Shown: positions 2,401 through 44,600 of the stretch, one piece after another
Numbering within the stretch: position 1 is the stretch's first letter
Layout: every line of letters begins with the position of its first letter
Source: an uncultured Gellertiella sp.
Lineage (GTDB): Bacteria; Pseudomonadota; Alphaproteobacteria; Rhizobiales; Rhizobiaceae
NCBI RefSeq assembly: GCF_963457605.1
Contig: NZ_OY735139.1
Coordinates: 2,820,001-2,884,000, forward strand
DNA length: 64,000 nt
Direction: 5' to 3'
Translations under genes and position numbers: made by a program
Notes under the pieces: generated by a model
The model's database searches: none
What the model saw: the letters and a program-made list of their open reading frames with translations, nothing else
What the model was told of the DNA's origin: nothing

Positions 2401-2829
2401 ATGCAGAAATCCGGTTCTCTCAGGCACCGCATTACCGGGGCCACGGCAACGCTCGGTCGCCGTGGTTATCCGCATATCGTCTCGGCCACCGGGGGGGAGA
2501 TCGATATTGTCACCGGACCGTCGCAGGCAGGCTTCAACCCTGTAGATCTTCTCTGTGCCTCCCTGTCCGCCTGCCTCGCCATGAGTGCCCGCATTGCGGC
2601 GGGCGAGCTTGGCGTGCTGGCCGACATGGAAGAGATTGCGGTGACGGTGGAGGCCGACAAGAGCGAGGCGGAACCGTTTCGCATCCTGCGCTTCGTCATC
2701 GGCCTCACGATCAGGGGCGCGATCGACGATGAGCGCAAAACGGCGATCCTGCACCGGGCGGAAGCGCTTTGCACCGTATCCAATACGCTGGCGACGCGAC
2801 CCGAGCTGTTCCTGCGTCTTGATGACTGA
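2401..2829 (+). CDS. OsmC family peroxiredoxin-like protein
   Basis: OsmC/Ohr-fold protein of 142 residues. Members reduce organic hydroperoxides with two cysteines. Both are visible: one in LLCASLSACLAMSA on the central helix and one in ALCTVSNTL near the C terminus. The spacing and the FNPVDLLCASL segment favour the YhfA/OsmC-like branch over the Ohr branch. The gene is 12 bases behind ackA, suggesting joint transcription. A detoxification role is inferred from the family only. Confidence 0.82.
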   Translation: MQKSGSLRHRITGATATLGRRGYPHIVSATGGEIDIVTGPSQAGFNPVDLLCASLSACLAMSARIAAGELGVLADMEEIAVTVEADKSEAEPFRILRFVIGLTIRGAIDDERKTAILHRAEALCTVSNTLATRPELFLRLDD

Positions 2830-5976: not shown

Positions 5977-6059
5977 GCTAGGTCCCCGGTACGGCAAGGG
6001 CGGGCGTGCGCTGTCAGGAAATTGTGCGCCCGGTTTTTTTGACAGACCGCAACCTGGCA

Positions 6060-6268
6060 AGAAGGTATCCAGCCAAATCTAACTGAATATTTAATATCAA
6101 TCCGCTTTCAGGATCGTATTGCAAATAAAATATCTCAAATAAAACTACTATTATTTATAATTGAATGCTTTGCATCCAGTGGGTGCAGCGCGCGGAGAAC
6201 GCGCGCTGCCCATGGCTTCAGACCAGGCCTCATACCAGGGATCACCGGGCTGTCAGGTCAGTCCCGTG
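6060..6268. promoter_or_regulatory. AT-rich upstream region of the GGDEF-EAL gene
   Basis: A sharply AT-rich block (about 6075-6170, with TTTAATATCAATC and TATTATTTATAATTG) between two same-direction genes in an otherwise GC-rich sequence. It most likely holds the promoter of the downstream cyclic-di-GMP gene on the minus strand. No operator is assignable by eye. Confidence 0.4.
6185..6209 (-). terminator. hairpin downstream of the esterase gene
   Basis: Perfect 10-base inverted repeat GCAGCGCGCG / CGCGCGCTGC around the spacer GAGAA, about 60 bases past the esterase stop codon in its direction of transcription. There is no T-run, so it may be a weak terminator or an mRNA-stabilising hairpin. 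Confidence 0.5.
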
Positions 6269-7408
6269 TCAACGGACCAGTCCGGCGGCCCTCAGCGCGT
6301 CGTGAATGACCTTGTCGATTGTATCGGCAAGGCCGGTTTTGTCCTTCGCCTCTGCCTTGGTCGGGGGCCGTTTGGCGGCTTTTACGGAAAGTGGCGAAAC
6401 CATTTTGCCGAGGGCGCCCGCCAGCGGTGAGGCGTGCCTGACCGGTCCCGCCGCGCGTTTTGGCGGCGACGGGCCGTCCTCGAACCGTTCGAGATCGCCG
6501 TCTCCGATCAGGCCCCAGTTGCGGGCGATCCGGGCGGTCGAGGAAATGCCCGTTTCCAGCATGAAAGGTCCTGCCTGTCCGATGGAGGTGGACGCGGTGG
6601 TGGCAAGCGGAACGCCGTGACCCATGCCGTCGATCATGTAGAGTTCGACGACATCGCGGCCCTTGCCATCACGCCAGACCCGGCGGGAAGCGGATGGTTC
6701 ATCCAGGCTGTGATCTGCTGCATGGGCAAGACCATGGGCCGCGCGCCACTGATCGACGATCCTCTCGGCATTGACCGGCTTGACGGTATGGTCGTGGGTG
6801 CCGTGCCAGACGGAAAGGCGCGGCAAAGCGCGGGCCCTGGTCGTCGCGGAGGGGAGAAGTGCCTGCAGATCCGCCGTGTCCGGGAAGTTTCGCCCCTGCA
6901 TGCGCTCGAAGGCCTCGCCGACCGAGGTCGCTGTCCCATAGGGCAGGCCGCCGATGATGGCGCCGGCCTCAAACAGGTCCGGATAGGCGGCCAGCATGGC
7001 ATTGGCCATGGCACCGCCCGCCGACAGGCCGGTGATGAAAATCTTGCCCCTGTCGATCCCGTGGGCGACGACGACGTGGTCGATCATCTCGCGGATCGAC
7101 AGCAACTCGCCACGATCACGGGTGATGTCGTCCTTCTGAAACCAGTTGAAGCACAGATTGGCATTGTTGCTGCGCTGTTGCTCGGGGTAAAGCACCGGAA
7201 ACCCGCAGAAATCGGCAATCTGCGACCAGCCGCTGCCGTGCGCATAGGTGCCCGCATCCTGGGTGCAGCCATGGAGGGCCACCACCAGCGGTGCATCCGG
7301 TTTCATCAGGTCAGGGACATGCAGCCAGGCCCGGAGATGGCCGGGATTGATGCCGGATTTCTTTATCTCGACAAGATGGGTATCTCGCGACTGTCGATTG
7401 GGCAACAT
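6269..7408 (-). CDS. PHB depolymerase family esterase
   Basis: Alpha/beta hydrolase of 379 residues of the extracellular short-chain-length polyhydroxyalkanoate depolymerase / feruloyl-esterase-like family (PhaZ/LpqC type). It has the oxyanion segment VVALHGCTQDAGTYAHGSGW, the substrate-pocket segment NLCFNWFQ, and the lipase box GLSAG with the nucleophile Ser near residue 129. A later Asp/His pair lies in WHGTHDHTVKP and GMGHGVPL. The start is fixed by an AGGAG site seven bases upstream (CAAGGAGATC before ATG). No signal peptide is apparent, so the substrate may be intracellular despite the family name. The C-terminal ~70 residues are basic and proline-rich. Activity on PHB is inferred only. 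Confidence 0.85.
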   Translation of the reverse strand: MLPNRQSRDTHLVEIKKSGINPGHLRAWLHVPDLMKPDAPLVVALHGCTQDAGTYAHGSGWSQIADFCGFPVLYPEQQRSNNANLCFNWFQKDDITRDRGELLSIREMIDHVVVAHGIDRGKIFITGLSAGGAMANAMLAAYPDLFEAGAIIGGLPYGTATSVGEAFERMQGRNFPDTADLQALLPSATTRARALPRLSVWHGTHDHTVKPVNAERIVDQWRAAHGLAHAADHSLDEPSASRRVWRDGKGRDVVELYMIDGMGHGVPLATTASTSIGQAGPFMLETGISSTARIARNWGLIGDGDLERFEDGPSPPKRAAGPVRHASPLAGALGKMVSPLSVKAAKRPPTKAEAKDKTGLADTIDKVIHDALRAAGLVR

Positions 7409-7496
7409 GATCTCCTTGCACGGACGTTGAGCCCCCATAACGCACAGGCAGGCAGGTTTGCTGCATTGCACAAACATTTATTTGCGATGGCGGTTG

Positions 7497-8531
7497 TCAT
7501 GCCGTCCTCATCGCCGCTGTACCAGCGCTGTCCTGCGCCCGCAGATCGAGGGCCGTCGTACCGGTCTTGCGTTTGAGCATCCGGCTCAGATGCGAGGAAT
7601 CGCAAAAGCCGCATTCCGCCGCAATCGAGGCCACCGAGCGGGTGGTGGCGCGCAGCAGATGCAGGGCGTGGTCGAGCCGGAGACCGAGATAGGCATCAAG
7701 CGGGGAGAGGCCGAGGTCGGATCGAAAGCGGCGCTCAAGGGTCTTCTTGCTGGTGGCAAGCCGCCGTCCGAGTTCGGCAATCGACAGCGGCACATCCAGA
7801 TGGTCCTGCATCAGCAGCAGCGCGCGGCGTATCAGCGGATCCTTCGACTGGATTTCCTGGCTCGAGACCGGTTGCGGCGTGGTGCCGATCGCCGCCTCAT
7901 CGATCATCATGATGTGCAGGCTCTTGGTGGCAAGCGCCCGGCCAAGATGCCGCTCGACCAGAAAGGCTGCCAGATGCGCCGCGCTTGCCCCGCCGGAACA
8001 GGTCAGCCGGTCCCGGTCGACCACGAAGATCTGGTCCGAAACCGGTTTCAGCCCGTGGAACTGCGCGAGGAAATCATCGTGATGATACCAGCTGACGCAG
8101 CAGCGATAGCCGTCCATCAGGCCGGCGCGGTGGAGTGCGAGGGAGCCTGTACACAATCCGACCAGCGATATCCCATTTTTCGCCGCCGCCTTCAGATAGG
8201 CGTCGATGCTGTCATTGCGACGGGCAAGTGCGCCGATCAGCCCGCCGACCACGACGATATAGTCGAAATCCTCCGCCTGGCCGAAGCTGGCGGTGGGATG
8301 AATGTCGATGCCGCAACTTGACCGGATCGGCTGGTTGCGCGGGGCCAGAACCGACCATCGGCAATTGATCTGCCGGCTCCGGTCACCTTCGTCGGCAGCG
8401 AGCCGCAGCACGTCGATGAAATTGGCGAAGGCGCAGAGGGTGAAATTCGGCAGCAGGATGAAGCCTACCGACAGGCGCTGGGACCGTCGGCCACTGGCAG
8501 GGTTGGCCCGCAGGGAATTGGGAATCGTCAT
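7497..8531 (-). CDS. GlxA family transcriptional regulator (DJ-1/PfpI-like + AraC HTH)
   Basis: 344 residues. The N-terminal half is the DJ-1/PfpI-like domain (SVGFILLPNFTLCAFANFID, the elbow GLCTGSLALHRAGL). The C-terminal half is an AraC/XylS double helix-turn-helix (PLSIAELGRRLATSKKTLERRF and SVASIAAECGFCDSSHLSRM). Regulators of this layout (GbdR, CdhR and relatives) control quaternary-amine or amino-acid catabolism in other proteobacteria. The start MTIPNSL was chosen over a much longer open frame because that frame overlaps the divergent neighbour. The next regulator of the same family is transcribed away from it, 102 bases apart, so both share a short promoter region. Ligand unknown. 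Confidence 0.87.
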   Translation of the reverse strand: MTIPNSLRANPASGRRSQRLSVGFILLPNFTLCAFANFIDVLRLAADEGDRSRQINCRWSVLAPRNQPIRSSCGIDIHPTASFGQAEDFDYIVVVGGLIGALARRNDSIDAYLKAAAKNGISLVGLCTGSLALHRAGLMDGYRCCVSWYHHDDFLAQFHGLKPVSDQIFVVDRDRLTCSGGASAAHLAAFLVERHLGRALATKSLHIMMIDEAAIGTTPQPVSSQEIQSKDPLIRRALLLMQDHLDVPLSIAELGRRLATSKKTLERRFRSDLGLSPLDAYLGLRLDHALHLLRATTRSVASIAAECGFCDSSHLSRMLKRKTGTTALDLRAQDSAGTAAMRTA

Positions 8532-8633
8532 GTCTTGTCGCAATTCTTCGGTAAACCTGTCTCTTTCATTCTTTGCCGATCCCGCCGCCCCGTCAATACT
8601 GAAGGGCAGGAACCGCGTTGAAAGAGGCTTCTC

Positions 8634-9716
8634 ATGTCCGTCGGAATATCGTCGCCCCGCTCTTTCGTCTTCTACATCGTGCCCGATTTCACCATGCTTG
8701 CCTTCACCTCGGCCATCGAGGCGCTGCGGCTTGCCAATGCGGTGCTGGGCGAGGCGGTCTATTCCTGGCGGATTGCCTCTGCCGACGGGGCACCGGTGCG
8801 TGCCAGCTGCGGGCTGATGATCACGCCGGACCATGCCATCGCGGCGGAACGCGTCCTGCTTGCGGGTGACAGGCGTCCGTCGATGATCGTCGTCTGCTCC
8901 GGCTGGAATGTCGAGAACCATGTCAGCAAGACAGGGGCGGCCTGGTTGCGCGAGGCCCGCCAGCGGCAGGTGGAAATCGCCGGTGTCTGCACCGGTGCCT
9001 ATCTGCTGGCCGATGCCGGGCTGCTGGAAAATCGGCATTGCACCATCCACTGGGAAAATCTCCCGGTCTTTGAGGAGCGTTTCAGCCAGATTGCCGTCCA
9101 TACCGGCCTGATGGAAAGCGATGGCGGCATCCACAGCTGTGCGGGCGGTGCCGCCTGTTTCGACATGATGATGCATATCGTCGGCCGGGATTTCGGGCCC
9201 AGGGTAGTGTCTGCGGTGCTGGATCAGGCGATGGTCGACCGTATTCGCGCCCCCTCCGAGCGTCAGCGCATGCCCCTGACGGTAAAGCTCAGTTCACTCA
9301 ACCCGAAGATCCTGAAAGCCATCGAACTGATGGAAGAGCATCTGGCCGACCGGCTGCCGATGGAAGAGATCGCCTCTGCCGTCTGCCTGTCCCGCCGCCA
9401 GGTCGAGCGGCTGTTCCAGCTGGAACTCGAAACCTCACCCTCGCGCTATTACCTGCAATTGCGGCTGGAGCGGGCCCGCCTGCTGGTCACCCAGTCGGCC
9501 ATGCAGGTGGTCGAGATCGCGATTGCCTGCGGTTTCGTCTCGGCCTCGCATTTTTCGAAATGCTATCGGCATTTCCACGGCGTCTCGCCGCAGGAAACCC
9601 GTGATCAGCGGCAGACCAGCGTCCAGATGCCGGCGCTGCGCAAGGGCCTTGCCGGTGAGGCACTGCCGGCGGAAGCCGCCAACCAGGGCGATTTTGCCAT
9701 CGGCCGGGTGGCGTGA
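8634..9716 (+). CDS. GlxA family transcriptional regulator (DJ-1/PfpI-like + AraC HTH)
   Basis: 360-residue paralogue of the divergent neighbour. The N-terminal ligand domain reads FVFYIVPDFTMLAFTSAIEALRL with the elbow GVCTGAYLLADAGLL. It then has MESDGGIHSCAGGAACFDMM, typical of the family, and a C-terminal AraC HTH (PMEEIASAVCLSRRQVERLF; VVEIAIACGFVSASHFSKCYR). Members close to this sequence type include regulators of choline/glycine betaine and carnitine use; that is family knowledge, not proof. The ~30 residues after the HTH look unstructured. A mosaic repeat lies directly behind the stop and may act as its terminator. Confidence 0.88.
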   Translation: MSVGISSPRSFVFYIVPDFTMLAFTSAIEALRLANAVLGEAVYSWRIASADGAPVRASCGLMITPDHAIAAERVLLAGDRRPSMIVVCSGWNVENHVSKTGAAWLREARQRQVEIAGVCTGAYLLADAGLLENRHCTIHWENLPVFEERFSQIAVHTGLMESDGGIHSCAGGAACFDMMMHIVGRDFGPRVVSAVLDQAMVDRIRAPSERQRMPLTVKLSSLNPKILKAIELMEEHLADRLPMEEIASAVCLSRRQVERLFQLELETSPSRYYLQLRLERARLLVTQSAMQVVEIAIACGFVSASHFSKCYRHFHGVSPQETRDQRQTSVQMPALRKGLAGEALPAEAANQGDFAIGRVA

Positions 9717-9722
9717 CGACTC

Positions 9723-9885
9723 CAGAGTCTTTCAGCTTCATGCTGAACCAGGCAGCCTCTGGCGCACCCTGTTTTCGTTTGTCATTTCGCTCAAAGTCGT
9801 TTGAGCCCTCAAACTCGTTTGAGCGCTCAAACGAGATTCCATACGCAAAACGTCGTTTGCGTGTTTTCCCTGACAAACGATAGAG
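9723..9885. repeat. RIME-like mosaic palindromic repeat, expanded copy
   Basis: Longest copy of a repeat found five times in the window. It starts with a hairpin (CAGAGTCTTTCAGC ... GAACCAGGCAGCCTCTG), then TGTTTTCGTTTGTC, and ends TTTTCCCTGACAAACGATAGAG, matching the ends of the copies at 21.7 and 34.0 kb. The middle is replaced by a run of small palindromes built on CTCAAA-n-TTTGAG and a related CGCAAAACG-TCGTTTGCG pair. It fills most of the gap between a regulator and an oxidoreductase gene. The layout with two palindromes resembles the Rhizobium intergenic mosaic elements. Confidence 0.75.
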
Positions 9886-34289: not shown

Positions 34290-34713
34290 CCCGCGCGGGA
34301 TCATTGCGGCAAAACTGTTCCAGCGTCATGTGATCGAGAATATCGGAAATCGCGTCGCGCACCTCGGTCATCGACAGCCGGACCTGGCAGGTTTCCGGAT
34401 CGGCACAATCCTCGCAGGGCTGATAGGCGGTGCGGCTGGCGCAGAGAATCGGCGCCAGCGGTCCGTCCAGCGCCCGGATCGCCTGGCCGATGCGGATCTC
34501 CGAGGCCGGCCGCGCCAGACTGTAGCCGCCACCCGCTCCCTTCTTCGAGCGCAGGATGCCATTGTTGCGCAGCTCAAGCAGGATCGTGTCGAGAAACTTC
34601 TTCGGAATCTGGTTGGTCGTGGCAATCTCGGTGACGACAACACTCTCCCCCGGCTTCAACCCGGCCAGATGCACCAGCGCCTTCAATCCATATTTGCCTT
34701 TTTTCGTCAGCAT
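34270..34713 (-). CDS. Rrf2 family transcriptional regulator with cysteine cluster
   Basis: 147 residues. The N-terminal winged helix MLTKKGKYGLKALVHLAGL and IPKKFLDTILLELRNNGIL then GAGGGYSLARP are standard Rrf2 marks. Downstream it carries four cysteines, C-x8-CxxC-x5-C, in ILCASRTAYQPCEDCADPETC. Rrf2 proteins of this kind (IscR, NsrR, RsrR) hold an Fe-S cluster; CymR-type members control cysteine/sulfur genes without one. The position next to sulfonate genes supports sulfur or redox control. Its 3' end overlaps by 20 bases the end of the broken acyl-CoA-dehydrogenase-like gene. Confidence 0.88.
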   Translation of the reverse strand: MLTKKGKYGLKALVHLAGLKPGESVVVTEIATTNQIPKKFLDTILLELRNNGILRSKKGAGGGYSLARPASEIRIGQAIRALDGPLAPILCASRTAYQPCEDCADPETCQVRLSMTEVRDAISDILDHMTLEQFCRNDPARVNALTG

Positions 34714-34876
34714 GTTCCAGGTCCTGATCTCTGATCGTTGCAGTTAGTACATAAATTCTATCTGCCTGATAAGTCCGCTTGAGCCCGGTTTCCGTTTTTT
34801 TTCGGAAGGGTTGGCTTGCATCCGGACACCCCCGTTCCGTCGTCGTGACCTGGCGACAGGCTACCCCTTTCGCCCT

Positions 34877-35665
34877 CTATCCCAGGCGCGGCAGCAACTC
34901 CGCCACCAGGGGATTCGGAAAACGGCGCCGGACAGTCACGGCGTAGAAGTTTTCTTCGACGCCGGCGAGTGTATCGAGCTCGGTCAAAAGGCCCGCCTCC
35001 AGTTCGCCTTTGACGACAATCGGCGGCAGTACGGCAAGGCCGAGGCCCTCGCGCACCAGCAGGCGCATCATTGCCATGTCGTCGACCTCGGCGGCAATCT
35101 GCGGCACTACGCCCAGCCGTGCGGCAAGGGAATCGAATTTCTGCCTTACACCGCTTTCCGCCGTCGGCAATATCAGGGGATGGCGGGCAAGGCGGCTGGC
35201 GAGATCGCCTTGCCCATGGAAGGCTGGACGCCCCACCAGGCTGACAGCCTGCGTGGCCACCAGATGGGAGACGAAAGGCGTCGTCGCATCGCCCGGAGGG
35301 GCCTGATTGAGCAGCACGACATCAAGGTTATGCGCCTCCAGCCCGGCCAGCAATTCGGCCGTTCTCCCGGACCTGAGGATAATCTCGACATCGGCACGTC
35401 CGATGACCGGCTTCAGGAATTCCATCTGGAAATTGCGCGACAAGGTGGCGAGAGCGCCGATGCGAATCGGTCGTCGCACCATTCCCGTCCGCTTCAGCGT
35501 ATCGACCAGTTCCTGACCAACGGAAAAGATCCGGTCGGCATGGTCCAGTGCAATCCGCCCCGCCTCCGTCAGGTGAAGCTGCCTCCCCCGCCGCTCGAAT
35601 AGCGGATGGCCGATCCTGTCCTCCAGGTTCTTGATCTGGATCGACAGGGCGGACTGGGAGACCGC
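34877..35665 (-). pseudogene. LysR regulator, 3' part, cut off by an integrative element
   Basis: Encodes all of a LysR protein except its first ~31 residues. The hybrid frame starts in element DNA at 35719 and joins the true sequence at SQSALSIQIKNLEDRIGHPL, the second half of the HTH. The ligand-binding domain follows (RPIRIGALATLSRNFQMEFL and GLGLAVLPPIVVKGELE). The missing N-terminal piece lies 4.75 kb away at 40406-40507 on the same strand. The two halves align at the shared sequence S-x-S-A. Before the insertion the gene was divergent from dabB, so it was probably the transcriptional regulator of the dab bicarbonate transporter, in the manner of CcmR/CbbR-type proteins. The product lacks helices 1 and 2 of the HTH and should not bind DNA normally. 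Confidence 0.8.
35648..35661. other. left attachment-site repeat (attL core)
   Basis: GGCGGACTGGGAGA, direct partner of 40406-40419 with one mismatch. On the minus strand it encodes SQSA of the LysR HTH. This copy carries the Gln codon conserved in LysR proteins, so it is the more native of the two. Confidence 0.7.
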
Positions 35666-35780
35666 CAAACCTATGTTCGGTCGCGTCTGCTGGCGTTCTA
35701 AAAAATCAAAGGTAATCAAAGAACTGATGGTCTTTCCAACTGTTAATGTCCACTAAAGTCCGCTACTATCCGGCAAATGG

Positions 35781-35802
35781 GTTAGGGATAAAGTTAGGGA
35801 CA
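35781..35802. repeat. left GTTAGGGA tandem repeat (probable integrase arm site)
   Basis: 22 bases, GTTAGGGATAAAGTTAGGGA followed by CA: two copies of GTTAGGGA 12 bases apart. A 20-of-22 match occurs at 40330-40351 near the other end in the same orientation. It ends four bases before the integrase start codon, so binding there could also repress the integrase gene. Confidence 0.65.
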
Positions 35803-35806
35803 TTCG

Positions 35807-37000
35807 ATGGCGCGGGCATTAAACAAGCTGACAGATGCAACTTGCAAAGCGGCTTCAATCGCGGGTCGCCTTGGCGACGGCGGCGGGCTTTACCTGCATG
35901 TGAAGCCTTCCGGCTCGAAATCCTGGGCCTTCATCTGGAAACAGGAGGGAAACCGCTTCGAAATGGGGCTTGGTGCCTATCCAACGGTCAAGCTTGCCAA
36001 GGCTCGCGAACTGGCGACCTCGCACCGGCAGGCGATTTCCGAGGGCAGAAACCCCATTGCCGAAAAGCAGAAAACTGAAATCCCTTCCTTCCTCGATTGT
36101 GCCGATACCTTCCTGAAGTCGATGGAAGGGCAATGGCGCAATGAGAAGCACCGGGCGCAATGGCGCATGACGGTGACGGAATACACGAAAGCGATGCATC
36201 ATAAGTCGGTTGCCGAGATTGGCACCGATGATGTTTTGAAAGTGCTATCGCCGATGTGGCAAGAGAAGCCGGAAACCGCCTCTCGGCTTCGCGGACGGCT
36301 CGAGCGGATACTGGATTTCGCCAAGGTGCGCGGCTGGCGAACGGGAGAAAATCCGGCTTTATGGCGCGGCCATCTGAAATCCATTCTTCCTGCCCGGCAA
36401 AAGCTGACACGCGGCCACCACGCGGCCATGCCGTACTCTGCCGTTCCTGCGTTCATGCGGGAGCTTTCCAGTCGTGAGGCGATGGCAGCACGCGGGCTCG
36501 AGTTTCTCATTCTCACGGCTGCGCGGTCCGGCGAAGTGCTTGGCGCAACGTGGTCTGAAATCGATCTGGATAACGCGATATGGACGGTTCCTGCCAATCG
36601 GATGAAGGCAGGCAAAGAACATCGTGTGCCACTGACACCTCGCGCGCTTGCTATTGCCAAAGCGCTGCACGAAACCCGGTTTTCTGATTGGGTCTTTCCC
36701 GGTCAAAGGCTAAATCGGCCTCTTTCCGGCATGTCCTTTGACAAGCTCATGGAACGCGTTGGCGTTGATCAATATACCGTGCACGGCTTCCGCTCCGCTT
36801 TCCGCGACTGGGTTGGCGATGAAACCCATTTCCCGCGCGAGGTTGCTGAACAAGCCTTGGCGCATCGCGTCGGCGATGCCACCGAGCGCGCTTACCGTCG
36901 GGCTGACGCGCTGGAAAAGAGACGTAAGCTAATGGAAGCTTGGGAGACATTTATTGGGGGATTAAGGCCGGGAAACGTAGTGAGGTTGGCTTCCAATTAG
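35807..37000 (+). CDS. tyrosine-type site-specific integrase, P4-like (DUF4102)
   Basis: 397 residues. The N-terminal arm-binding domain is of the P4/DUF4102 type (DGGGLYLHVKPSGSKSWAF, MGLGAYPTVKLAKARELA). The SAM-like core-binding domain and a complete catalytic domain follow: Arg240 in TAARSGEVLGATW, His326 and Arg329 in HGFRSAFRDW, His353 in LAHRVGD, and the nucleophile Tyr363 in AYRRADAL. All active-site residues are present, so the enzyme should be competent. P4-type integrases usually target tRNA genes; here the target is a lysR coding sequence. It is the first gene at the left end, reading inward. Confidence 0.94.
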   Translation: MARALNKLTDATCKAASIAGRLGDGGGLYLHVKPSGSKSWAFIWKQEGNRFEMGLGAYPTVKLAKARELATSHRQAISEGRNPIAEKQKTEIPSFLDCADTFLKSMEGQWRNEKHRAQWRMTVTEYTKAMHHKSVAEIGTDDVLKVLSPMWQEKPETASRLRGRLERILDFAKVRGWRTGENPALWRGHLKSILPARQKLTRGHHAAMPYSAVPAFMRELSSREAMAARGLEFLILTAARSGEVLGATWSEIDLDNAIWTVPANRMKAGKEHRVPLTPRALAIAKALHETRFSDWVFPGQRLNRPLSGMSFDKLMERVGVDQYTVHGFRSAFRDWVGDETHFPREVAEQALAHRVGDATERAYRRADALEKRRKLMEAWETFIGGLRPGNVVRLASN

Positions 37001-37125
37001 ATTTCAGCATTTGAGGGCTCAGTCGAAATCAACTACGGTAGCCATAGGGATAGGACGGCCATCCGATAAGCCGGAATAGCACCCCCGGTTTCCCTGACTT
37101 TCCTCGCGGTGCCATCGGGTGCACG

Positions 37126-37908
37126 ATGCCGAACTTCGAACACGCAATCAGTTGGGCCTCGCATAGTGGCGACGTTGAATTTGAACTTTCAGCAACCGAT
37201 TGGGAGGGCCTTGAAAGTGCGTACGAGCGAGTGATTAGTCATGAGCAAAGGGAAGAATTTCTCAACATCTGCCAAGTTTACTTGAATGCCCGGCATTCCG
37301 AATTAAACGCGGCGAAACCGAGTGAAATCCGAGAAATTGCTGAAAAAATTTATGGTTCGATTAAGCCGTTTATCAACTTCGCTCAAACCGGTTCAATTAG
37401 CGGCGGTAGCGTGGATCGAACGGATGCTCGTATGCTATTCACTAATCTGCTTGAGAGAGAGCTTTCACAGAGGCCTCTCAACATCACATGTGAGAACCCA
37501 TGTGCCCGCACGGAAGATGGCGGTGACAATATGCCATCTCTTGAGATGGAGGCCACACTAACCACTTTTCTGCTTGGCATGGTTGCCAAGCGCTTGCAAT
37601 CTTCATTTGATGCAATATTGGGCCAACAAGCGCTCTCGGCTCTTTCGCAGAATGGGTTCAGGAACGGCGATGCTATTTCTAATTTCCTTGCAGCAGCAAA
37701 GGAGTGGGCGACAAAGCACAGATTGCCCAAAGCGTCGCATAGTTCGAAAGCTCGAAAATGCGACAATGCGGGTGAGCTTGCACATTTCTTAAAGTTGGCC
37801 CTAGGCCAATTTCCTACTCCCTACAATTATAAACTTAACGCTACCGCAATAGCAGATCGGCTCAAAAAAGTGACGACTGCCCTAAACAGGCGAAATCGGG
37901 GTTCATAG
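37126..37908 (+). CDS. hypothetical protein of the element
   Basis: 260 residues with no recognised domain. Composition is mostly helical, with acidic N-terminal parts and a basic C terminus (ADRLKKVTTALNRRNRGS). Its base composition is clearly poorer in GC than the chromosome around it, marking it as foreign cargo. It stands alone between the integrase and the HTH gene with its own short upstream gap (125 bases). Because the rest of the element is compact and regulatory, this gene is the best candidate for variable cargo such as a defence function, but no motif supports that. Confidence 0.65.
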   Translation: MPNFEHAISWASHSGDVEFELSATDWEGLESAYERVISHEQREEFLNICQVYLNARHSELNAAKPSEIREIAEKIYGSIKPFINFAQTGSISGGSVDRTDARMLFTNLLERELSQRPLNITCENPCARTEDGGDNMPSLEMEATLTTFLLGMVAKRLQSSFDAILGQQALSALSQNGFRNGDAISNFLAAAKEWATKHRLPKASHSSKARKCDNAGELAHFLKLALGQFPTPYNYKLNATAIADRLKKVTTALNRRNRGS

Positions 37909-37976
37909 CCTCTGATGGCGGGGCTTGCATTTGCCCTCATTATTCTCGTTTCCGGATGTGATTGATAGACAGACCC

Positions 37977-38225
37977 ATGACGAACTCGCAAGGGTACGCG
38001 CCGGACGTTGAACTCTCCGGCTGGAATGACTTTATGCAAAAAGTCGCAGTCACCATTCCCGAAGCCACGGCAATGTCCGGCCTCGGTAGAACTTTCCTCT
38101 ACAAGCTTTTCAATGAGGGCAAGCTCACGCCGCGCAAGGCGGGGAAGCGAACGCTCATCCTTGTGAGCGAGCTTGAGGCATATCTGAACAATCTCCCCAA
38201 GGGAGGTGCGTTCAATGCAGCTTGA
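37977..38225 (+). CDS. AlpA/excisionase-type helix-turn-helix protein
   Basis: 82 residues. The centre reads VAVTIPEATAMSGLGRTFLYKLFNEGKLTPRKAGKRTLIL, a MerR-like single HTH with wing as in AlpA and Xis-like proteins (HTH_17 group): the strand-turn at GRTFLYKL then VSELEAYLN. Such proteins activate the integrase or direct excision in P4-type elements. An in-frame TTG at 37962 would add five residues. The 3' end overlaps the next gene by 11 bases, starting a run of coupled genes. Confidence 0.8.
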   Translation: MTNSQGYAPDVELSGWNDFMQKVAVTIPEATAMSGLGRTFLYKLFNEGKLTPRKAGKRTLILVSELEAYLNNLPKGGAFNAA

Positions 38226-38424
38226 AAATGAAAACCCGGCAGCGCTTGCAGGCGCTAGCCGGGTCGAGGATACCACGTCCCTCCACGGAACCGGTCTCAT
38301 AACCTACAGTATCGCTGACGCTATGAGCTTTCAAGCGACATATGTGTCAACTCGCTACCGGCTTTCGCCATGTATGGCCCGGCTTGTCTGCCAACTGGCA
38401 GAAATCGGCGGGAGGCTCGCATGA
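38215..38424 (+). CDS. small protein of the element
   Basis: 69 residues, starting MQLENENPAALAGASRV. The C-terminal half (STRYRLSPCMARLVCQLAEIGG) has the look of a short helix pair seen in many rhizobial prophage or element proteins. Starts inside the end of the HTH gene and ends in an ATGA overlap with the next gene, so translation is coupled on both sides. Function unknown. Confidence 0.6.
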   Translation: MQLENENPAALAGASRVEDTTSLHGTGLITYSIADAMSFQATYVSTRYRLSPCMARLVCQLAEIGGRLA

Positions 38425-38762
38425 TGGCTTTCCAGCTAGATAGTTCCGAACCGATCATGAATGCGTCTCTACCGTGGGTCTCTGCCGATTTCTCGCTACG
38501 GGAAGAAGCCGACGCCTATCGGGCAGTTGTCGCGGTCCTTAATCCATCGTGGCGGGTCATAGTGTGCCGCGATGCAATCCAATGGATCGTGCAGCGGCGG
38601 GCCGGTCAAAGGCACGGCAGGGCGCGATGGGAAGCCAAGTCCTTCCATCGTCTGAAGACCGGACTATTGCGCCGGGTCCGGCAGCGGGCAGGCGAATGTG
38701 ATGCAACTGCGCTCAATATCCTGATGGCGCTACCGGCAGTGATGGGGGGCGCTCATGAGTAA
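38421..38762 (+). CDS. small basic protein of the element
   Basis: 113 residues, starting at the ATGA shared with the previous stop. The centre is Trp/Arg-rich (LNPSWRVIVCRDAIQWIVQRRAGQRHG), followed by a basic helix (LKTGLLRRVRQRAGECDATAL), which suggests nucleic-acid binding. The last eight bases overlap the following start. No named family recognised; similar genes are common in rhizobial integrated elements. Confidence 0.62.
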   Translation: MMAFQLDSSEPIMNASLPWVSADFSLREEADAYRAVVAVLNPSWRVIVCRDAIQWIVQRRAGQRHGRARWEAKSFHRLKTGLLRRVRQRAGECDATALNILMALPAVMGGAHE

Positions 38763-39048
38763 ACGCTTCTCGATTGTCTACCGCGTAGAGCCGGACGGAT
38801 CAGCAACGCGGCTCATAGGTCGCAATGCGTGGGCCTTGCTGGAGCTGCATCGGATGGGGAGATGCGGTTGCACGCCGATCACCACGCCGGGGCCGCGCTG
38901 GAGTGCATATGTGCTTAATCTGCGCAATCTTGGCCTTAGTATCAGCACTATATATGAAAACCACGAGGGCAAGTTTCCCGGCTCTCATGCGCGCTATGTG
39001 CTGAATTCCAGCGTCTCCATCCTGGAGGTAGTGGATGGCAAGGCATAA
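38755..39048 (+). CDS. winged-helix domain protein of the element
   Basis: 97 residues. The core ALLELHRMGRCGCTPITTPGPRWSAYVLNLRNLGLSI is a winged-helix type sequence often annotated in alphaproteobacterial phages and elements: helix, recognition turn at TPGPRWSAYV, then a wing leading to HEGKFPGSHARYVL. A small regulator or structural DNA-binding protein is likely. It overlaps both neighbours (8 and 14 bases). Confidence 0.68.
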   Translation: MSKRFSIVYRVEPDGSATRLIGRNAWALLELHRMGRCGCTPITTPGPRWSAYVLNLRNLGLSISTIYENHEGKFPGSHARYVLNSSVSILEVVDGKA

Positions 39049-39481
39049 TGCCAAGGGCCGGTCAAAGGTGGAGGCGCGCCATGTGCGCCTCTACCATTCC
39101 ATGCTGGTCTGCCCTGCATGGCTTGCACTCTCACCGAACGAGCGATGCGTATACATTGAAATCGCGCAGAGATACAACGGGGCGAACAATGGGTTTATCG
39201 CCTATGCGGTCCGGGAAGGTGCGGATGCCCTGAGGCTATCTAAAAACACGGTTGCGCGATGCATTGAGCAGCTAATTACGCTGGGGTTTCTAGAAATCGT
39301 GGTGAAAGGCAGCTTCAATATGAAGAAAGGCCACGCAACTGAATACCGCCTCACGGATTTTGCGTGCAACCGAACCAATCAACTGCCGTCCAAAGCGTTC
39401 ATGAGATGGGGCCGCGAACGGCGAAAAGAAAAAAACACGGTGTCACCCGGGACCGCAACAGTACCTGACATGACACCGTGA
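39035..39481 (+). CDS. HTH protein of the element, possibly replication-linked
   Basis: 148 residues. After a short basic start (MARHNAKGRSKVEARHVRL) it shows LSPNERCVYIEIAQRYNGANN and then a GntR/MarR-like winged helix (EGADALRLSKNTVARCIEQL ... LGFLEIV). This pattern occurs in phage and plasmid replication or partner proteins. Its last 45 bases overlap the first of the CACGGTGTCA repeats that run on downstream, as many replication initiators sit next to their own iterons; that link is an inference. Overlaps the previous gene by 14 bases. Confidence 0.65.
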   Translation: MARHNAKGRSKVEARHVRLYHSMLVCPAWLALSPNERCVYIEIAQRYNGANNGFIAYAVREGADALRLSKNTVARCIEQLITLGFLEIVVKGSFNMKKGHATEYRLTDFACNRTNQLPSKAFMRWGRERRKEKNTVSPGTATVPDMTP

Positions 39482-39565
39482 CCATGAAACAAGCATGAAA
39501 TTTGGGCTTCACAGTCTCTCTGATGACACTGTGAAGCCTCTTTGCGACGGTCGCACGGTGTCACC
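39436..39565. repeat. cluster of direct and inverted repeats inside the element
   Basis: CACGGTGTCA at 39436-39445 is mirrored by TGACACCGTG at 39471-39480 and repeated directly at 39554-39563 (with CC following as at the first copy). Between them lies a hairpin with arms GCTTCACAGT (39506-39515) and ACTGTGAAGC (39528-39537). The cluster straddles the end of one gene and a non-coding gap of about 200 bases, a pattern fitting iterons, an origin or a regulatory array. Confidence 0.65.
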
Positions 39566-39682
39566 ACAGGTACACTTATAGTTACCATGGGAGGGGCCAC
39601 CCAACAGTGAGACAACACGACAGAAGCAGCTTTGCACGATCAGCACCTTCCACATGATTTCGGTTAAATGGAGAAGCGCAAA

Positions 39683-40282
39683 ATGGGTGGACCGGGTTCC
39701 GGAAATCCTTGGAGAGCATCGCGCGACAATTGCGAAGCCTATACCCGCGTCGATATTCGGTATCTGCGAAAGCGTGGGATGCTCGCGCCGGGATGTTCCG
39801 GCTCGCTGTCATGGAACCGAGGTGGTGAGCCTGCCGGTTATATCCGCTTCAAGACCCACTTCCACGAAATCGAGCTGATCTATCGGTATCGTCAATCCGG
39901 CGATGAAGACTGGCAGGACGTGAACGAGCGCATTCCGCTGGTGACTACCGATCAGTATCTTGGCGGGCGTCGCCGCTGGCTTGTGTGTCTGTCATGCCGA
40001 CGGCGTTGCGCCGTCCTTTACGGCGGCACGCATTACCGTTGCCGCAAGTGCTGGAACCTTGCTTACAAATCCCAACACGAGCCGCCGCACGAGCGGGCAT
40101 ACAGCCAAGCGCAAAAACTTCGGCAGCGCCTTGGCGGGTCTCAATGCCTTGACGATCCATTTCCGGAAAAGCCCAAAGGGATGCATCGCCGAACCTATGA
40201 CCGCCTATGGCAGAAGGGGGAGGCGCTGGAGGACGCGGCAGATGCGCAATTTGCAATGATGGTCGCGGCGTATCTTCGGTGA
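39683..40282 (+). CDS. Zn-ribbon protein at the right end of the element
   Basis: 199 residues. It opens GGPGSGNPWRASRD, a start shared with many rhizobial phage or element proteins. Two CxxC-type pairs (CLSCRRRC and CRKCW), about 20 residues apart, form a probable zinc ribbon around residues 105-130. The C-terminal half is helical and charged. Start chosen by GGAG nine bases upstream; ATG 39668 is in frame too. No catalytic residues seen; nucleic-acid binding is likely. Confidence 0.68.
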   Translation: MGGPGSGNPWRASRDNCEAYTRVDIRYLRKRGMLAPGCSGSLSWNRGGEPAGYIRFKTHFHEIELIYRYRQSGDEDWQDVNERIPLVTTDQYLGGRRRWLVCLSCRRRCAVLYGGTHYRCRKCWNLAYKSQHEPPHERAYSQAQKLRQRLGGSQCLDDPFPEKPKGMHRRTYDRLWQKGEALEDAADAQFAMMVAAYLR

Positions 40283-40329
40283 CGCCAAAGGGCTTTTGCC
40301 GCCCCAAAGCGCTATCAACAACGAGCCAA

Positions 40330-40351
40330 GTTAGGGATTAGGTTAGGGACA
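40330..40351. repeat. right GTTAGGGA tandem repeat (probable integrase arm site)
   Basis: GTTAGGGATTAGGTTAGGGA plus CA: same spacing and orientation as the left copy, two mismatches in 22. Lies between the last element gene and the right attachment repeat. Confidence 0.65.
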
Positions 40352-40390
40352 GAAAACTTCCCAATTAGAAAACCCATTAAATTCAAATAT

Positions 40391-40507
40391 TTAGAGGAAT
40401 TTAATGGCGGACAGGGAGAGATGCAGCCGCTCGGCCGTGCGGGTGAGGTTGCCGTCATGGGCAACCGCATGGAAATAACGCAGGTGATGATAGTTCAGCT
40501 CGCTCAT
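40391..40507 (-). pseudogene. LysR regulator, 5' part, severed by the element
   Basis: Begins MSELNYHHLRYFHAVAHDGN, a classical LysR N terminus, and continues TRTAERLHLS, the first two helices of the HTH. It then crosses into element DNA (LSAIKFL) and stops. The remainder of the gene lies at 34877-35665. It is divergent from dabB with 98 bases between start codons, so the native promoter of the regulator is intact but yields only a 38-residue peptide. Confidence 0.82.
40406..40419. other. right attachment-site repeat (attR core)
   Basis: GGCGGACAGGGAGA, one mismatch to the left core. On the minus strand it reads SLSA where the LysR family has SQSA, so the altered base belongs to the element side of the recombination. 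Confidence 0.7.
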
Positions 40508-40515
40508 TCGTTCGT

Positions 40516-40533
40516 TTTTATAGAACGATAAAA
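40516..40533. promoter_or_regulatory. inverted repeat in the lysR-dabB intergenic region
   Basis: TTTTAT-AGAACG-ATAAAA, a 6+6 inverted repeat with a 6-base spacer in an AT-rich part of the 98-base divergent promoter region. Size and place suit a LysR-type operator controlling dabBA. Confidence 0.4.
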
Positions 40534-40605
40534 CAAAGACAATGAATTTTTTATCGAAATCCCCGACTGTTACGAGAAGGTCCTCTTCACCATTCGAGGC
40601 CCGAC

Positions 40606-42174
40606 ATGGCACATCTGTTACCTCTTCTCGTCCCGCTCTGCTTTTTTTCCGCCGCCCTGCTGGCAGCCAGTGCGCCGTCGTTTCGCCCGCGCCGAATGCT
40701 CGGATTTGTCGAACGGCTGGCTCTCCTGGCCGTCCTCGCCGCCCTTGCGGCAGCCTTTCTCCTTGTCCTGTCCCCACCGGGCACAAGTCCCGCCGTCGGG
40801 TTCGGCTTGCTTGCCGTCTCCCTGCGCCATGATCTCGTCAGCACCACGATGCTGGTTCTGGTGAGCTTCCTCGGCTGGATCATCATCCGCTTCAGTTCAA
40901 CCTATCTCGACGGCGAGGCGCGGCAGGGGGCTTTCGCAGCCTGGCTCGCCGCCACCCTGGCATCGGTTTCACTCTTCGCCGTCGCAGGAACATTGCTGCT
41001 GCTGGTTGCAAGTTTCGTGGCGACAAGCCTTTGCCTGCATCAGCTCCTGCTGTTTTATGGGCAGAGGCCGGGTGCGCGGCGGGCAGCGCGCAAGAAGTTC
41101 ATTCTGTCGCGCCTGGCGGATCTGAGCCTTGCCGGTGCCGCCCTGCTTCTGGCCCTCGGCTATGGGACAGGCGACATCGCCACCATTCTCGAAAGCGCCC
41201 GCGCGGGCAATGCGCCTGTGGGTGCAGGTGCGGCAGCGACGCTGATCGCCATTGCGGCCCTGTTGAAGTCCGCCCAGTTCCCGACCCATGGCTGGCTGAC
41301 CGAGGTCATGGAGTGCCCGACGCCGGTCTCTGCCCTGCTGCATGCCGGCATCGTCAATGCCGGGGGCTTCCTGCTGATCCGTTTCGCCGACATCCTGCTT
41401 CTGTCCCCCGCCACGCTCGGGGCGCTTGTGGTGACCGGTGGCTTTACCGCCCTGTTCGGCGGTCTGGTCATGCTGACACAGAGCGCGGTGAAGACCTCGC
41501 TTGCCTGGTCGACCGTGTCGCAGATGGGGTTCATGATCTTCCAGTGCGGGCTCGGCCTGTTTCCGGTCGCGCTTCTGCATATCGTCGCCCATTCCCTGTA
41601 CAAGGCTCATGCCTTTCTCTCCTCGGGACGTGCCGTGGAACAGGTCGTGGCCCTTCGCAGGCCGGGACCGGTGGCCATTCCCGACATCCAGGCGGTGGCA
41701 AGGGCGTTTCTGCTGGCAATCCTCATCTATGGCATTGCCGGTCTCGCCTTCGGCTTCTGGCACAAGCCGCCGCAGGCGATCGCGCTGGGTGCCATCCTGA
41801 TCTTCGGCGTGGCCTATCTCATTGCCCAGGGCCTGGCCGATGCCGCGCCACGGGAACTGACCTGGCGGATTTGCCTGCAGGCCAGTGTCGCGGCCACCGG
41901 CTATTTTGCCCTTCAGGCCGCAGCCTATGCCCTGCTGGCGAAAACCCTTCCCGCACCGCCACCCCCGGGGCCGCTGGAATGGGCGCTGATCGTGCTTGCC
42001 GTCGGCACCTTCGGCATCGTGGCCATCGCGCAATCCCTCTTCCCGCTCTGGGCCAGCCACCCGGCAACGGCAGGCCTGCGCGTCCATCTTCAGAATGGCC
42101 TTTATGTCAACGCCCTCTTCGACCGGCTGCTGAACCACACCGCCGCCCTCTCGCCTGTTTCCGGAAAGGACTGA
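40606..42174 (+). CDS. dabB: DabB, membrane subunit of a DAB-type inorganic carbon transporter
   Basis: 522 residues with ~13-14 hydrophobic helices, of the NuoL/MrpA proton-pumping antiporter superfamily. Landmarks: PTHGWLTEVMECPTPVSALL (trans-membrane helix 7-8 region with the essential Lys before it in LLKSAQFPTHGW) and HAGIVNAGGFLLIRF. TLAWSTVSQMGFM-type residues appear as SLAWSTVSQMGFMIF, and SLYKAHAFLSSG supplies the second Lys. Paired with DabA, such proteins use the proton gradient to drive CO2 hydration and bicarbonate accumulation. It is followed after two bases by the dabA start. The former regulator gene lies divergently upstream in broken form. Confidence 0.9.
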   Translation: MAHLLPLLVPLCFFSAALLAASAPSFRPRRMLGFVERLALLAVLAALAAAFLLVLSPPGTSPAVGFGLLAVSLRHDLVSTTMLVLVSFLGWIIIRFSSTYLDGEARQGAFAAWLAATLASVSLFAVAGTLLLLVASFVATSLCLHQLLLFYGQRPGARRAARKKFILSRLADLSLAGAALLLALGYGTGDIATILESARAGNAPVGAGAAATLIAIAALLKSAQFPTHGWLTEVMECPTPVSALLHAGIVNAGGFLLIRFADILLLSPATLGALVVTGGFTALFGGLVMLTQSAVKTSLAWSTVSQMGFMIFQCGLGLFPVALLHIVAHSLYKAHAFLSSGRAVEQVVALRRPGPVAIPDIQAVARAFLLAILIYGIAGLAFGFWHKPPQAIALGAILIFGVAYLIAQGLADAAPRELTWRICLQASVAATGYFALQAAAYALLAKTLPAPPPPGPLEWALIVLAVGTFGIVAIAQSLFPLWASHPATAGLRVHLQNGLYVNALFDRLLNHTAALSPVSGKD

Positions 42175-42176
42175 TC

Positions 42177-44600
42177 ATGAACCAGATGACCCACACCGAC
42201 ATCACCACTGCCGCAAGCCTGCGGGAGGCCGCTGCACGCGCCGCACGGGCGATACCGCCGGCATGGCCGCTGAATGCGACCGTTGCCGTCAACCCTTTTG
42301 CCGGACAGTCCCATCTGTCGATCACCCGGACGGCCGGCCTGCTGGAACGGCTGACGGGCGAACGCCTGTTCATGCCGCGGCAATGGTATCTGGACCGGAT
42401 CCGCAATGGCACGGTCGCGCCGGAAGATCTGGCCGAAGCCCTGGAAAGGGGCGATGCCCTCAGCCTCTGGCACGGCACCGGGCAGGCCGGGGAGACAGGC
42501 GGGCAGGCAACAGCGCCGCAAGGCCTTCCCGACATGGCCACACTGGCGCGCGATGCCAGCGGAACCGATTGGCCGCGACTTGTCCTCGATTGGATATCGG
42601 GCTTTGCGGCCGGCTATTTCGACGAGGGGCAGGCCCTCTGGGCGGCTCCCCGCGGAAAGAGCCTCTTTGCCGCCTGGCGGCTGCATGCCGTGCATGACCT
42701 GTCTCCCGAGATTGCCGGTTTGACCGGCTTCTGCGCCGATGTCGCCGACCTGCCGCTGACGGCCAGCGACGTCCTCACCCATGCCGGCACCTGCCTTGGC
42801 CTGGACGGTGATCCCGGCACCTATTTCCACAAGCTGCTTCTCGAGTTGGGCGGATACGCCCAATATGCGCGCCAGCTGATGTTTTCGGCGGCGCGGGACG
42901 GGTCGGTGGACGAAACGCTGCTGGATCTGCTGGCGGTTCGGCTTGTCCATGAACTGTGCCTGTTCAAACGATATGAGGGCGTGGTCTCGAAACCGTGGAC
43001 AGAGGCGCTGGCCGCCCACAGGGCGGATCCCTGTCCCGGTCCGGACCTGCGGCTGGACGCCGCGCTGCAGGAGGCTGTCGAAAATGCCGCCGCACGCACC
43101 CTTCTCACCGGTCTGGAATGGTCGGCCCTGTCGCACAGCCTGAACAGGGACGCGGCGAGCCAGGGGCCAGATCTACAGGCGGCCTTCTGCATTGATGTGC
43201 GCTCGGAAGTCTTTCGCAGGGCGCTGGAGACGACCGACACCGGCATTGCGACGATCGGATTTGCAGGGTTCTTCGGTCTTGGTGTGGCGCATTGCGGCCC
43301 GGGTTCCGATGTCGTCGAACATCGTCTGCCGGTGCTCTTGCCGGCCGGGCGTTTTTCCTGCGCCGAAGTCAGCAAGCAGGACGACCGTTCCATCCGCCTG
43401 AGGTCCCGGGCGGTGCGGGCCTTCGGGCGGTTCCGGCAGGCAGCCGTGTCCTGCTTCGCCTTTGTCGAGGCGATGGGACCTGTCTATGCCGGAAAGCTTT
43501 TGGCTGGAAGCTTCGGCCTCGCGGGAAGCACGTCCCCCGGCCCAAGGCCAGTGTTCCGGGTGGAGCTTCCTCCTGAAGAGCGCGTCGCCGCCGCAGAGGC
43601 CGTGCTTCGCGCGATGTCGCTGACCGAAGGCTTTGCCCGATTGGTGCTTCTCGCCGGGCATGGTGCCACCAGCGCAAACAACCCCTTCCTCAGCGCCTTG
43701 CAATGCGGTGCCTGTGGAGGGCATGCCGGGGATGTCAATGCCCGCCTGCTTGCCAGCCTGCTGAACGATCCGCAGACCCGGCAGGGACTTGCCGAACGCG
43801 GCATCCTCATCCCACGTGACACCCTGTTCCTCGCCGGCCTGCATGATACCACCACGGACCATGTGGAACTGTTCAGCGGGGACGTGCAGGGGGCGGCGCA
43901 TGAGGCGGAGATTACCCGTCTGCGGGGGCATCTTGAGGCCGCAGGGCGGCTTGCGCGCGCGGAAAGGGCAAAACGCCTTCCTCGCGGCAGCGAGGGCAAG
44001 CTGGCATCCCGCAGTCGCGACTGGGCCGAAATCCGGCCGGAATGGGCTCTTGCGGGATGCAACTCCTTTATCGCCGCACCCCGGTCGCTGACTGTCGGCA
44101 AATCGCTGGAGGGCCGCAGCTTCCTGCATGATTATGTCTGGCAGAAGGACGAGGCCTTCAAGGTGCTGGAACTGATACTGACCGCCCCCGTCGTGGTGGC
44201 AAGCTGGATCAATCTGCAGTATTTCGGGTCCACGACGATGCCCCGCCTGTTCGGATCGGGCAACAAGCTGCTCCACAATGTGGTGGGCGGAATCGGTGTG
44301 GTGGAAGGCAATGGCGGTGTTCTGCGGACCGGTCTTGCCTGGCAATCGGTGCATGATGGCAAAAGCCTGCGGCACGAACCCTTGCGGCTGACGGTCATCA
44401 TCGCGGCCCCCGAATGGGCCATCACCGACATCCTGGCCCGGCACCCCGACATAAAGGCCCTGTTCGACAACGACTGGCTCAGACTCTGTGCCCTCGGCGA
44501 GAACGGCACCCCAAGCCGACGCTATATGGGTGACCTGCGGTGGAAGGACGTCAACACCGACCTCGCAAAAGACCTGCGGCCCCATCGGGAGGCAGCATGA
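42177..44600 (+). CDS. dabA: DabA, zinc subunit of the DAB inorganic carbon transporter (DUF2309)
   Basis: 807-residue DUF2309 protein, resembling a beta-carbonic anhydrase active site. Zinc and acid residues known from Halothiobacillus DabA have clear partners here: Cys338 and Asp340 in AAFCIDVRSE, His495 in LAGHGATSANNP and Cys510 in LQCGACGG. The 15-residue His-Cys spacing matches the published protein. Other family marks are WPLNATVAVNPFAGQ and FVIWQKDEAFKVLELILTAP-like segments (LHDYVWQKDEAFKVLE). The ATG is preceded by AAGGA, and dabB ends two bases before, so translation is coupled. DAB systems are best known from autotrophs and some heterotrophs that need extra CO2. The earlier open frame upstream is an overlap with dabB and is not used. 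Confidence 0.93.
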   Translation: MNQMTHTDITTAASLREAAARAARAIPPAWPLNATVAVNPFAGQSHLSITRTAGLLERLTGERLFMPRQWYLDRIRNGTVAPEDLAEALERGDALSLWHGTGQAGETGGQATAPQGLPDMATLARDASGTDWPRLVLDWISGFAAGYFDEGQALWAAPRGKSLFAAWRLHAVHDLSPEIAGLTGFCADVADLPLTASDVLTHAGTCLGLDGDPGTYFHKLLLELGGYAQYARQLMFSAARDGSVDETLLDLLAVRLVHELCLFKRYEGVVSKPWTEALAAHRADPCPGPDLRLDAALQEAVENAAARTLLTGLEWSALSHSLNRDAASQGPDLQAAFCIDVRSEVFRRALETTDTGIATIGFAGFFGLGVAHCGPGSDVVEHRLPVLLPAGRFSCAEVSKQDDRSIRLRSRAVRAFGRFRQAAVSCFAFVEAMGPVYAGKLLAGSFGLAGSTSPGPRPVFRVELPPEERVAAAEAVLRAMSLTEGFARLVLLAGHGATSANNPFLSALQCGACGGHAGDVNARLLASLLNDPQTRQGLAERGILIPRDTLFLAGLHDTTTDHVELFSGDVQGAAHEAEITRLRGHLEAAGRLARAERAKRLPRGSEGKLASRSRDWAEIRPEWALAGCNSFIAAPRSLTVGKSLEGRSFLHDYVWQKDEAFKVLELILTAPVVVASWINLQYFGSTTMPRLFGSGNKLLHNVVGGIGVVEGNGGVLRTGLAWQSVHDGKSLRHEPLRLTVIIAAPEWAITDILARHPDIKALFDNDWLRLCALGENGTPSRRYMGDLRWKDVNTDLAKDLRPHREAA

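Follow-up and report, generated by a model that had tools for sequence, protein, structure and literature searches.

The window, a stretch of 64,000 nucleotides from an uncultured Gellertiella sp. (Rhizobiaceae; assembly GCF_963457605.1, contig NZ_OY735139.1, positions 2,820,001 to 2,884,000), carries a LysR-type regulator gene that is split by a 4.76-kb integrative element next to dabBA, the genes of a bicarbonate-supply system. The lysR gene is located on the minus strand, starts at 40507, ends at 34877 and is broken within codon 30, inside the codons of the helix-turn-helix (HTH). Its 5' part (40419..40507, minus strand; assigned from the in-frame join) comprises the ATG and the remainder of the first 29 codons plus two bases. 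The 3' part (34877..35660, minus strand; assigned by Pfam and from the joined frame) continues from codon 30 and holds the native core site, CTCCCAGTCCGCC, at its inner end. Regarding Pfam matches, 34877-35665 yielded LysR_substrate (1.7e-25) and HTH_1 (2.5e-12, starting at profile position 25), and both the HTH and the effector domain of the LysR family are thus represented in the 3' part. When the flanks are joined at the core, a single uninterrupted LysR frame of 290 amino acids (aa) results; at the host's own locus, the protein so joined gives a match over residues 1-37. The best NCBIfam model for the 3' part (which alone was scanned) was NhaR, with 78.6 bits against an equivalog cut-off of 219; the protein is accordingly classed as NhaR-like, not as NhaR itself.

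On the other side of a 98-bp gap lie dabB (40606..42174, plus strand; Pfam Proton_antipo_M 4.8e-37) and dabA (42120..44600, plus strand; a translated stretch with an approximate start codon; Pfam DabA 9.7e-232). Neither the gap nor dabBA themselves are damaged in the window. Within the gap, the dyad CGTTC-N9-GAACG (40509..40527, not assigned to a strand) is a candidate LysR binding site; in a five-species alignment, judged by eye and without a statistical test, it is exact in three species and deviates by a single base in two. The initial annotation, made from the letters of this DNA, had described one lysR gene in two same-direction pieces around an integrase block, with the 5' piece divergent from dabB and the protein halves meeting in the HTH at S-x-S-A. 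This description was confirmed, the residues being S-Q-S-A. The 14-base repeat that it placed on both sides of the block is present but imperfect, with 12 of 13 bases shared (13 of 14 if the next base is included).

The element occupies 35661..40405 (plus strand; 4,758 bp with one core) and occurs a second time on the same chromosome. A search of the host genome with the integrase gave two identical matches and one distant match (29%), and the two copies show zero differences inside the element. The alignment of window positions 35648-40422 with positions 5056-9830 of the second locus (L004) is 4,775 bases long. It contains two differences: one at 35655, which belongs to the left core, and one at 40419, immediately beyond the right core. 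Because the second copy aligns core to core, the ends of the element are fixed, and the core-to-core length is 4,758 bp in both copies. The second copy with both its cores extends over L004 5056-9826 (from G000:C2:2403055); the two left cores, at G000:C2 2403055 and 2855648 (the latter being window position 35648), are 452,593 bp apart in the same orientation. The second copy is found at a tRNA-Ser gene with anticodon GGA (L004 9813-9902; ARAGORN), the 3' end of which holds its core, and the 16-base tRNA-end repeat CTCCCTGTCCGCCATT occurs again approximately 160 bp upstream of the integrase; this copy is thus bordered by the 3' end of a tRNA gene on one side and by a repeat of that end on the other. 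A pair of identical 4.76-kb direct repeats 452.6 kb apart could allow homologous recombination to loop out the segment between them.

The repeat reported in the initial annotation is the end of tRNA-Ser, CTCCCTGTCCGCC, from which the lysR codons for S-Q-S-A, CTCCCAGTCCGCC, differ by one mismatch. Alignment of the window copy to the second copy places the left core, GGCGGACTGGGAG, at 35648..35660 (minus strand), with the native lysR base at 35655, and the right core, GGCGGACAGGGAG, at 40406..40418 (minus strand), with the tRNA-type base of the element, as in CTCCCTGTCCGCC. Both cores of the second copy are GGCGGACAGGGAG and have the tRNA-type base. Read outward from the integrase, the second copy shows GGCGGT-CTCCCTG-TCCGCC and the window copy GGCGGT-CTCCCAG-TCCGCC. 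The mismatch is located in the spacer, at the Gln codon of lysR, and the two junctions of the window copy differ there. With 12 of 13 core bases like those of the primary site and with junction ends that differ at the mismatch, the lysR target has the features of a secondary site.

Integrase loci of relatives were surveyed for the same type of core. The 78 loci comprised 74 non-own matches listed for 297 family genomes, two loci from Hoeflea and the two copies of the host, and the core filter was GGCGG[AT]-N7-TCCGCC with up to three mismatches. A recognisable core was present in 45 of the 78 loci, with at most one mismatch in 36. In 44 of these 45 (the second copy included) the core is followed by A (TCCGCCA), like the tRNA-Ser end, the window copy being the sole exception; the same kind of site is thus used in 44 of the 78 loci. 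In L113, L118, L128 and L132, tRNA-Ser shares a 14-16-base repeat with a stretch upstream of the integrase, and a tRNA-Ser was also found within 290 bp upstream in the core-less loci L119, L121, L130, L225 and L227. In L095 and L126 the right arm reads ACCGCC, which places them outside the core filter. Other integrases (34-38% identical) stand beside GGCGGACTCTCTGTCCGCCA cores in L193 (genome G001), L194 (G003) and L197 (G061), and two congeners and one other family genome accordingly hold different elements at this type of site.

An element of tRNA-Ser type that is present twice, at its primary site tRNA-Ser(GGA) and at an off-target secondary site in the lysR gene beside dabBA, very probably accounts for these observations. 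The tRNA-Ser site is taken as primary and lysR as secondary because of the tRNA-type base in both cores of the second copy and because of the integrase survey; the use of the regulator gene by the integrase would follow from the near-identity of the tRNA end and the S-Q-S-A codons, which are separated by a single base. Several results weigh against this interpretation. When the comparison is extended to the 16-base repeat of the second copy, three positions of the lysR site deviate. Sites within one mismatch of the 13-mer number 16 in the genome, compared with 18 for the reversed control; in addition to the four cores that belong to the two copies, they comprise 11 further sites with one mismatch and a single exact match, the unoccupied 13-base core CTCCCTGTCCGCC at window positions 2559-2571 (plus strand). 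Judged from sequence alone, the lysR site is thus not set apart from other sites in the genome. In addition, 33 of the 78 integrase loci lack such a core by the filter used. Among these, L122 has a repeat in common with tRNA-Asn, L123 has one in common with tRNA-Arg, and L106 adjoins tRNA-Ala, so that the integrase family is not exclusively associated with tRNA-Ser. It is possible that selection for loss of the regulator was the reason for the use or the keeping of the lysR site. The empty exact core at 2559-2571, an equally good but unused site, is located inside a gene that looks OsmC-like by eye. The codons of the LysR recognition helix were also considered as a general secondary hot spot, an idea that was rejected for this genome: only one of its 21 TCNCAGTCNGCN sites is in a LysR gene (the dab one; by eye), and with 39 sites the reversed control exceeded this total.

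Mechanistically, the integrase would have catalysed an exchange within the 7-bp spacer, by which the left end would keep the base of the regulator gene and the right end would receive that of the element. In ICEBs1 of Bacillus subtilis, a mismatched crossover is resolved by replication and results in ends with different spacers (PMC3715440). Its secondary sites have 2-12 mismatches; at four of the seven sites, excision reached 4-15% of the normal level, at the other three it was undetectable, and mismatches in the spacer went together with low recovery of the circular form (PMC3715440). Excision from the lysR site would probably be reduced as well, yet could exceed that from the ICEBs1 secondary sites because there is one mismatch in the 13-base core, as opposed to 2-12. 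Site-specific excision is expected to leave either a Gln or a Leu codon at the mismatch. The event is of a known kind and is new in this place as far as literature searches show: within a limited coverage of subscription papers, we found no literature on an integrative element inside a LysR gene, nor any joining tRNA-Ser, genomic island, secondary site and integrase.

The arrangement of lysR and dabB was compared with that in congeners and family genomes, the host species being represented by one assembly only. The joined LysR is 77-79% identical to the intact LysR of four congeners (alignments of 287-289 residues), in all of which the gene is divergent from dabB across gaps of 96-102 bp. A dabB match was obtained in 43 of 297 family genomes, and the best 30 dabB loci, the host's own included, were compared. 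Of the 29 other loci, 28 have a full-length divergent LysR match, and none of these matches contains an internal stop codon, although one of them takes in the natural end; the 29th gave no LysR match in the stretch fetched, and a split LysR was found at the host's own locus alone. The initial annotation had regarded regulator and transporter as natively back to back and had suggested that relatives be searched for the unbroken locus; 28 of the 29 loci agree with the former, and the latter was found, with the two pieces forming one lysR. As these 28 loci are unbroken, lysR does not appear to be a target that is hit regularly across strains or species. A search of 394 genomes with the junction pattern for other split lysR genes gave, among the matches listed, three exact ones, of which only the host's own is in a LysR gene, the other two being located elsewhere. 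With up to one mismatch, the pattern occurs in 139 of the 394 family genomes, at 0-3 matches per strand and likewise for the reversed control. The pairing of lysR and dabB looks functional, since the LysR matches are unbroken across the family and the dyad is kept in the gap.

Seven proteins are encoded by the element, beginning with a tyrosine integrase of 397 aa (35807..37000, plus strand), which carries arm-binding (Arm-DNA-bind_3, 3e-20), core-binding (Phage_int_M, 4.1e-25) and catalytic (Phage_integrase, 1.9e-15) domains in Pfam and matches phrog_1 integrase (2.6e-52). A 22-base repeat near the left end, GTTAGGGATAAAGTTAGGGACA (35781..35802, plus strand), is a candidate arm site of the integrase and recurs near the right end with 91% identity (40330..40351, plus strand; repeat family D3). 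The next gene (37126..37908, plus strand) encodes a 260-aa protein that matched nothing in Pfam, PHROGs, PADLOC, NCBIfam or the plasmid collection and was found in none of 45 related loci; located between the integrase gene and an excisionase-like gene, it is probably variable cargo. The excisionase-like HTH_17 protein (37962..38225, plus strand; HTH_17 3.9e-09; phrog_66 excisionase and regulator 2.7e-07) also gave the only match of the defence-gene scan, a weak HTH match to mad1. It is followed by a 130-aa protein (38370..38762, plus strand) without a match in Pfam, PHROGs, PADLOC or NCBIfam and present in three of the 45 related loci, by a winged-helix HTH_91 protein (38755..39048, plus strand; 6.1e-33) and by an HTH_36 protein (39035..39481, plus strand), which is weakly like replication initiators (HTH_36 0.00015, 21.9 bits, under the Pfam cut-off of 25; phrog_8102 replication initiation 3.3e-05). 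The last gene (39668..40282, plus strand) reads towards dabB and encodes a 204-aa protein of no family with CxxC pairs (by eye). Relaxase or transfer genes were not found among the seven proteins with Pfam, PHROGs and NCBIfam, and the element is accordingly not classified as conjugative or mobilizable. The two closest named integrase relatives are both in Hoeflea. The closest named relative of the element, in Hoeflea alexandrii (L055), encodes proteins 75% (integrase), 73% (excisionase-like), 61% (HTH_91) and 64.5% (204-aa protein) identical to those of the window. The plasmid collection gave five weak records for the element, none covering 80%, and IMG/VR five relatives with 49% identity at most.

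The insertion would cut the beginning of the HTH off from its recognition helix and from the effector domain, and loss of the regulator, as proposed in the initial annotation, is well supported on the basis of the gene structure. No close LysR paralogue that could replace it was found in the genome, the nearest other match being 25% identical (effector part as query). Many LysR proteins are activators, and the further proposal that dabBA would be left uncontrolled is therefore uncertain: loss of the regulator may mean that dabBA is uninduced rather than derepressed. Expression of dabBA would thus be altered, most likely by lack of induction. A RuBisCO large-subunit match was not found in the host genome, which has one beta-carbonic anhydrase match; dabBA therefore presumably supplies bicarbonate for ordinary biosynthesis. 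Among the genus genomes G000-G004, RuBisCO-large family matches occur in three of five (two of them strong) and dabB in all five. Within the coverage stated above, no literature on LysR control of DAB systems was found among the papers listed, and LysR is absent from the main text of PMC10880623 and PMC12628692.

Other explanations concern how the copies arose and what the insertion does. As a variant of the tRNA-Ser interpretation, the two copies may have been acquired separately instead of one arising from the other inside the lineage, which we regard as possible but as the less probable course: two arrivals in one transfer episode would also yield identical copies, and transconjugants with SGI1 at both of its sites have been observed (PMC2297512), but movement within the lineage requires one acquisition only. 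It is unlikely that dabBA is altered mainly by transcription out of the right end of the element and not by loss of LysR; all seven open reading frames taken as element genes point towards dabB and no terminator-like site was listed on the plus strand in 39979-41000, but neither was a promoter-like site on the plus strand in 34400-41000, in a scan limited to the sigma-70-type consensus. That lysR was already a pseudogene, the insertion being without consequence, is the least probable of all, given the intact joined frame with its identity to the congeners and the preserved dyad in the gap.

The initial annotation had gone further and suggested a switch based on precise excision, by which the element would leave and re-enter lysR in part of the population and so toggle the control of dabBA. 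In favour of this, the gene hit by the insertion is conserved beside dabB, the element has an excisionase-like gene, the zero divergence between the copies points to recent movement, the single core mismatch is fewer than in the studied ICEBs1 secondary sites, and such switches exist elsewhere, for example SpyCI in mutL (PMC4129442). A reversible switch is nevertheless very unlikely, because the usual target of the element is tRNA-Ser, the lysR insertion is found in one genome only (30 dabB loci), the mismatch lies in the crossover region, where mismatches in ICEBs1 are associated with low circle recovery (PMC3715440), and predicts a mixture of Gln and Leu at the empty site, and no empty lysR site was seen in the one host assembly. 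Highly improbable, too, is a related scheme in which the tRNA-Ser copy would serve as a lasting integrase reservoir and the lysR copy as a leaky, low-frequency phase variant. If it were true, rare excision would, owing to the spacer mismatch, restore the regulator in some cells (Gln) and alter its recognition helix in others (Leu), and one element would generate three regulatory states of the bicarbonate system in one population.

With the lysR insertion taken as off-target integration of a tRNA-Ser element, the locus indicates that an accidental insertion can inactivate a regulator gene located next to the genes for bicarbonate supply, and the host, as a natural lysR-minus strain, offers a means to learn the role of the LysR protein that accompanies dabBA across the family. 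Regarding known systems, dabB and dabA resemble the DAB/MpsAB inorganic-carbon systems by Pfam (PMC13144422, PMC8567241); the host differs from these in having a beta-carbonic anhydrase match and no RuBisCO match. The element shares the tyrosine integrase type and the tRNA 3'-end site with the tRNA-borne islands described with Islander (PMC4383910), although the window copy does not lie at a tRNA gene and the integrase of the second copy is at the tRNA-distal end. Like SpyCI in mutL of Streptococcus pyogenes (PMC4129442), it is a small element in a chromosomal gene with a possible regulatory effect; mutL, however, is a regular target with reported cyclic excision, whereas lysR is not a regular target here. 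SGI1 (PMC2297512) is likewise one element at a primary and a secondary site of the same chromosome, but its primary site is the 3' end of thdF, its secondary site is intergenic and it forms tandem arrays, whereas here a gene is broken. ICEBs1 (PMC3715440) likewise targets a tRNA gene, crosses over within 7 bp flanked by inverted repeats, can use protein genes as secondary sites and then has left and right ends that differ where the crossover differs. It is a conjugative element of a Gram-positive host, in contrast to the 4.76-kb element of the window, which is without recognised transfer genes. In comparison with ICEBs1, both sites are occupied here in one genome, by natural rather than experimental insertion and with fewer core mismatches. 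The locus thereby documents, in nature and with unusual clarity, the presence of a tRNA-targeting element at both its primary and a secondary site on one chromosome, with the crossover mismatch preserved.

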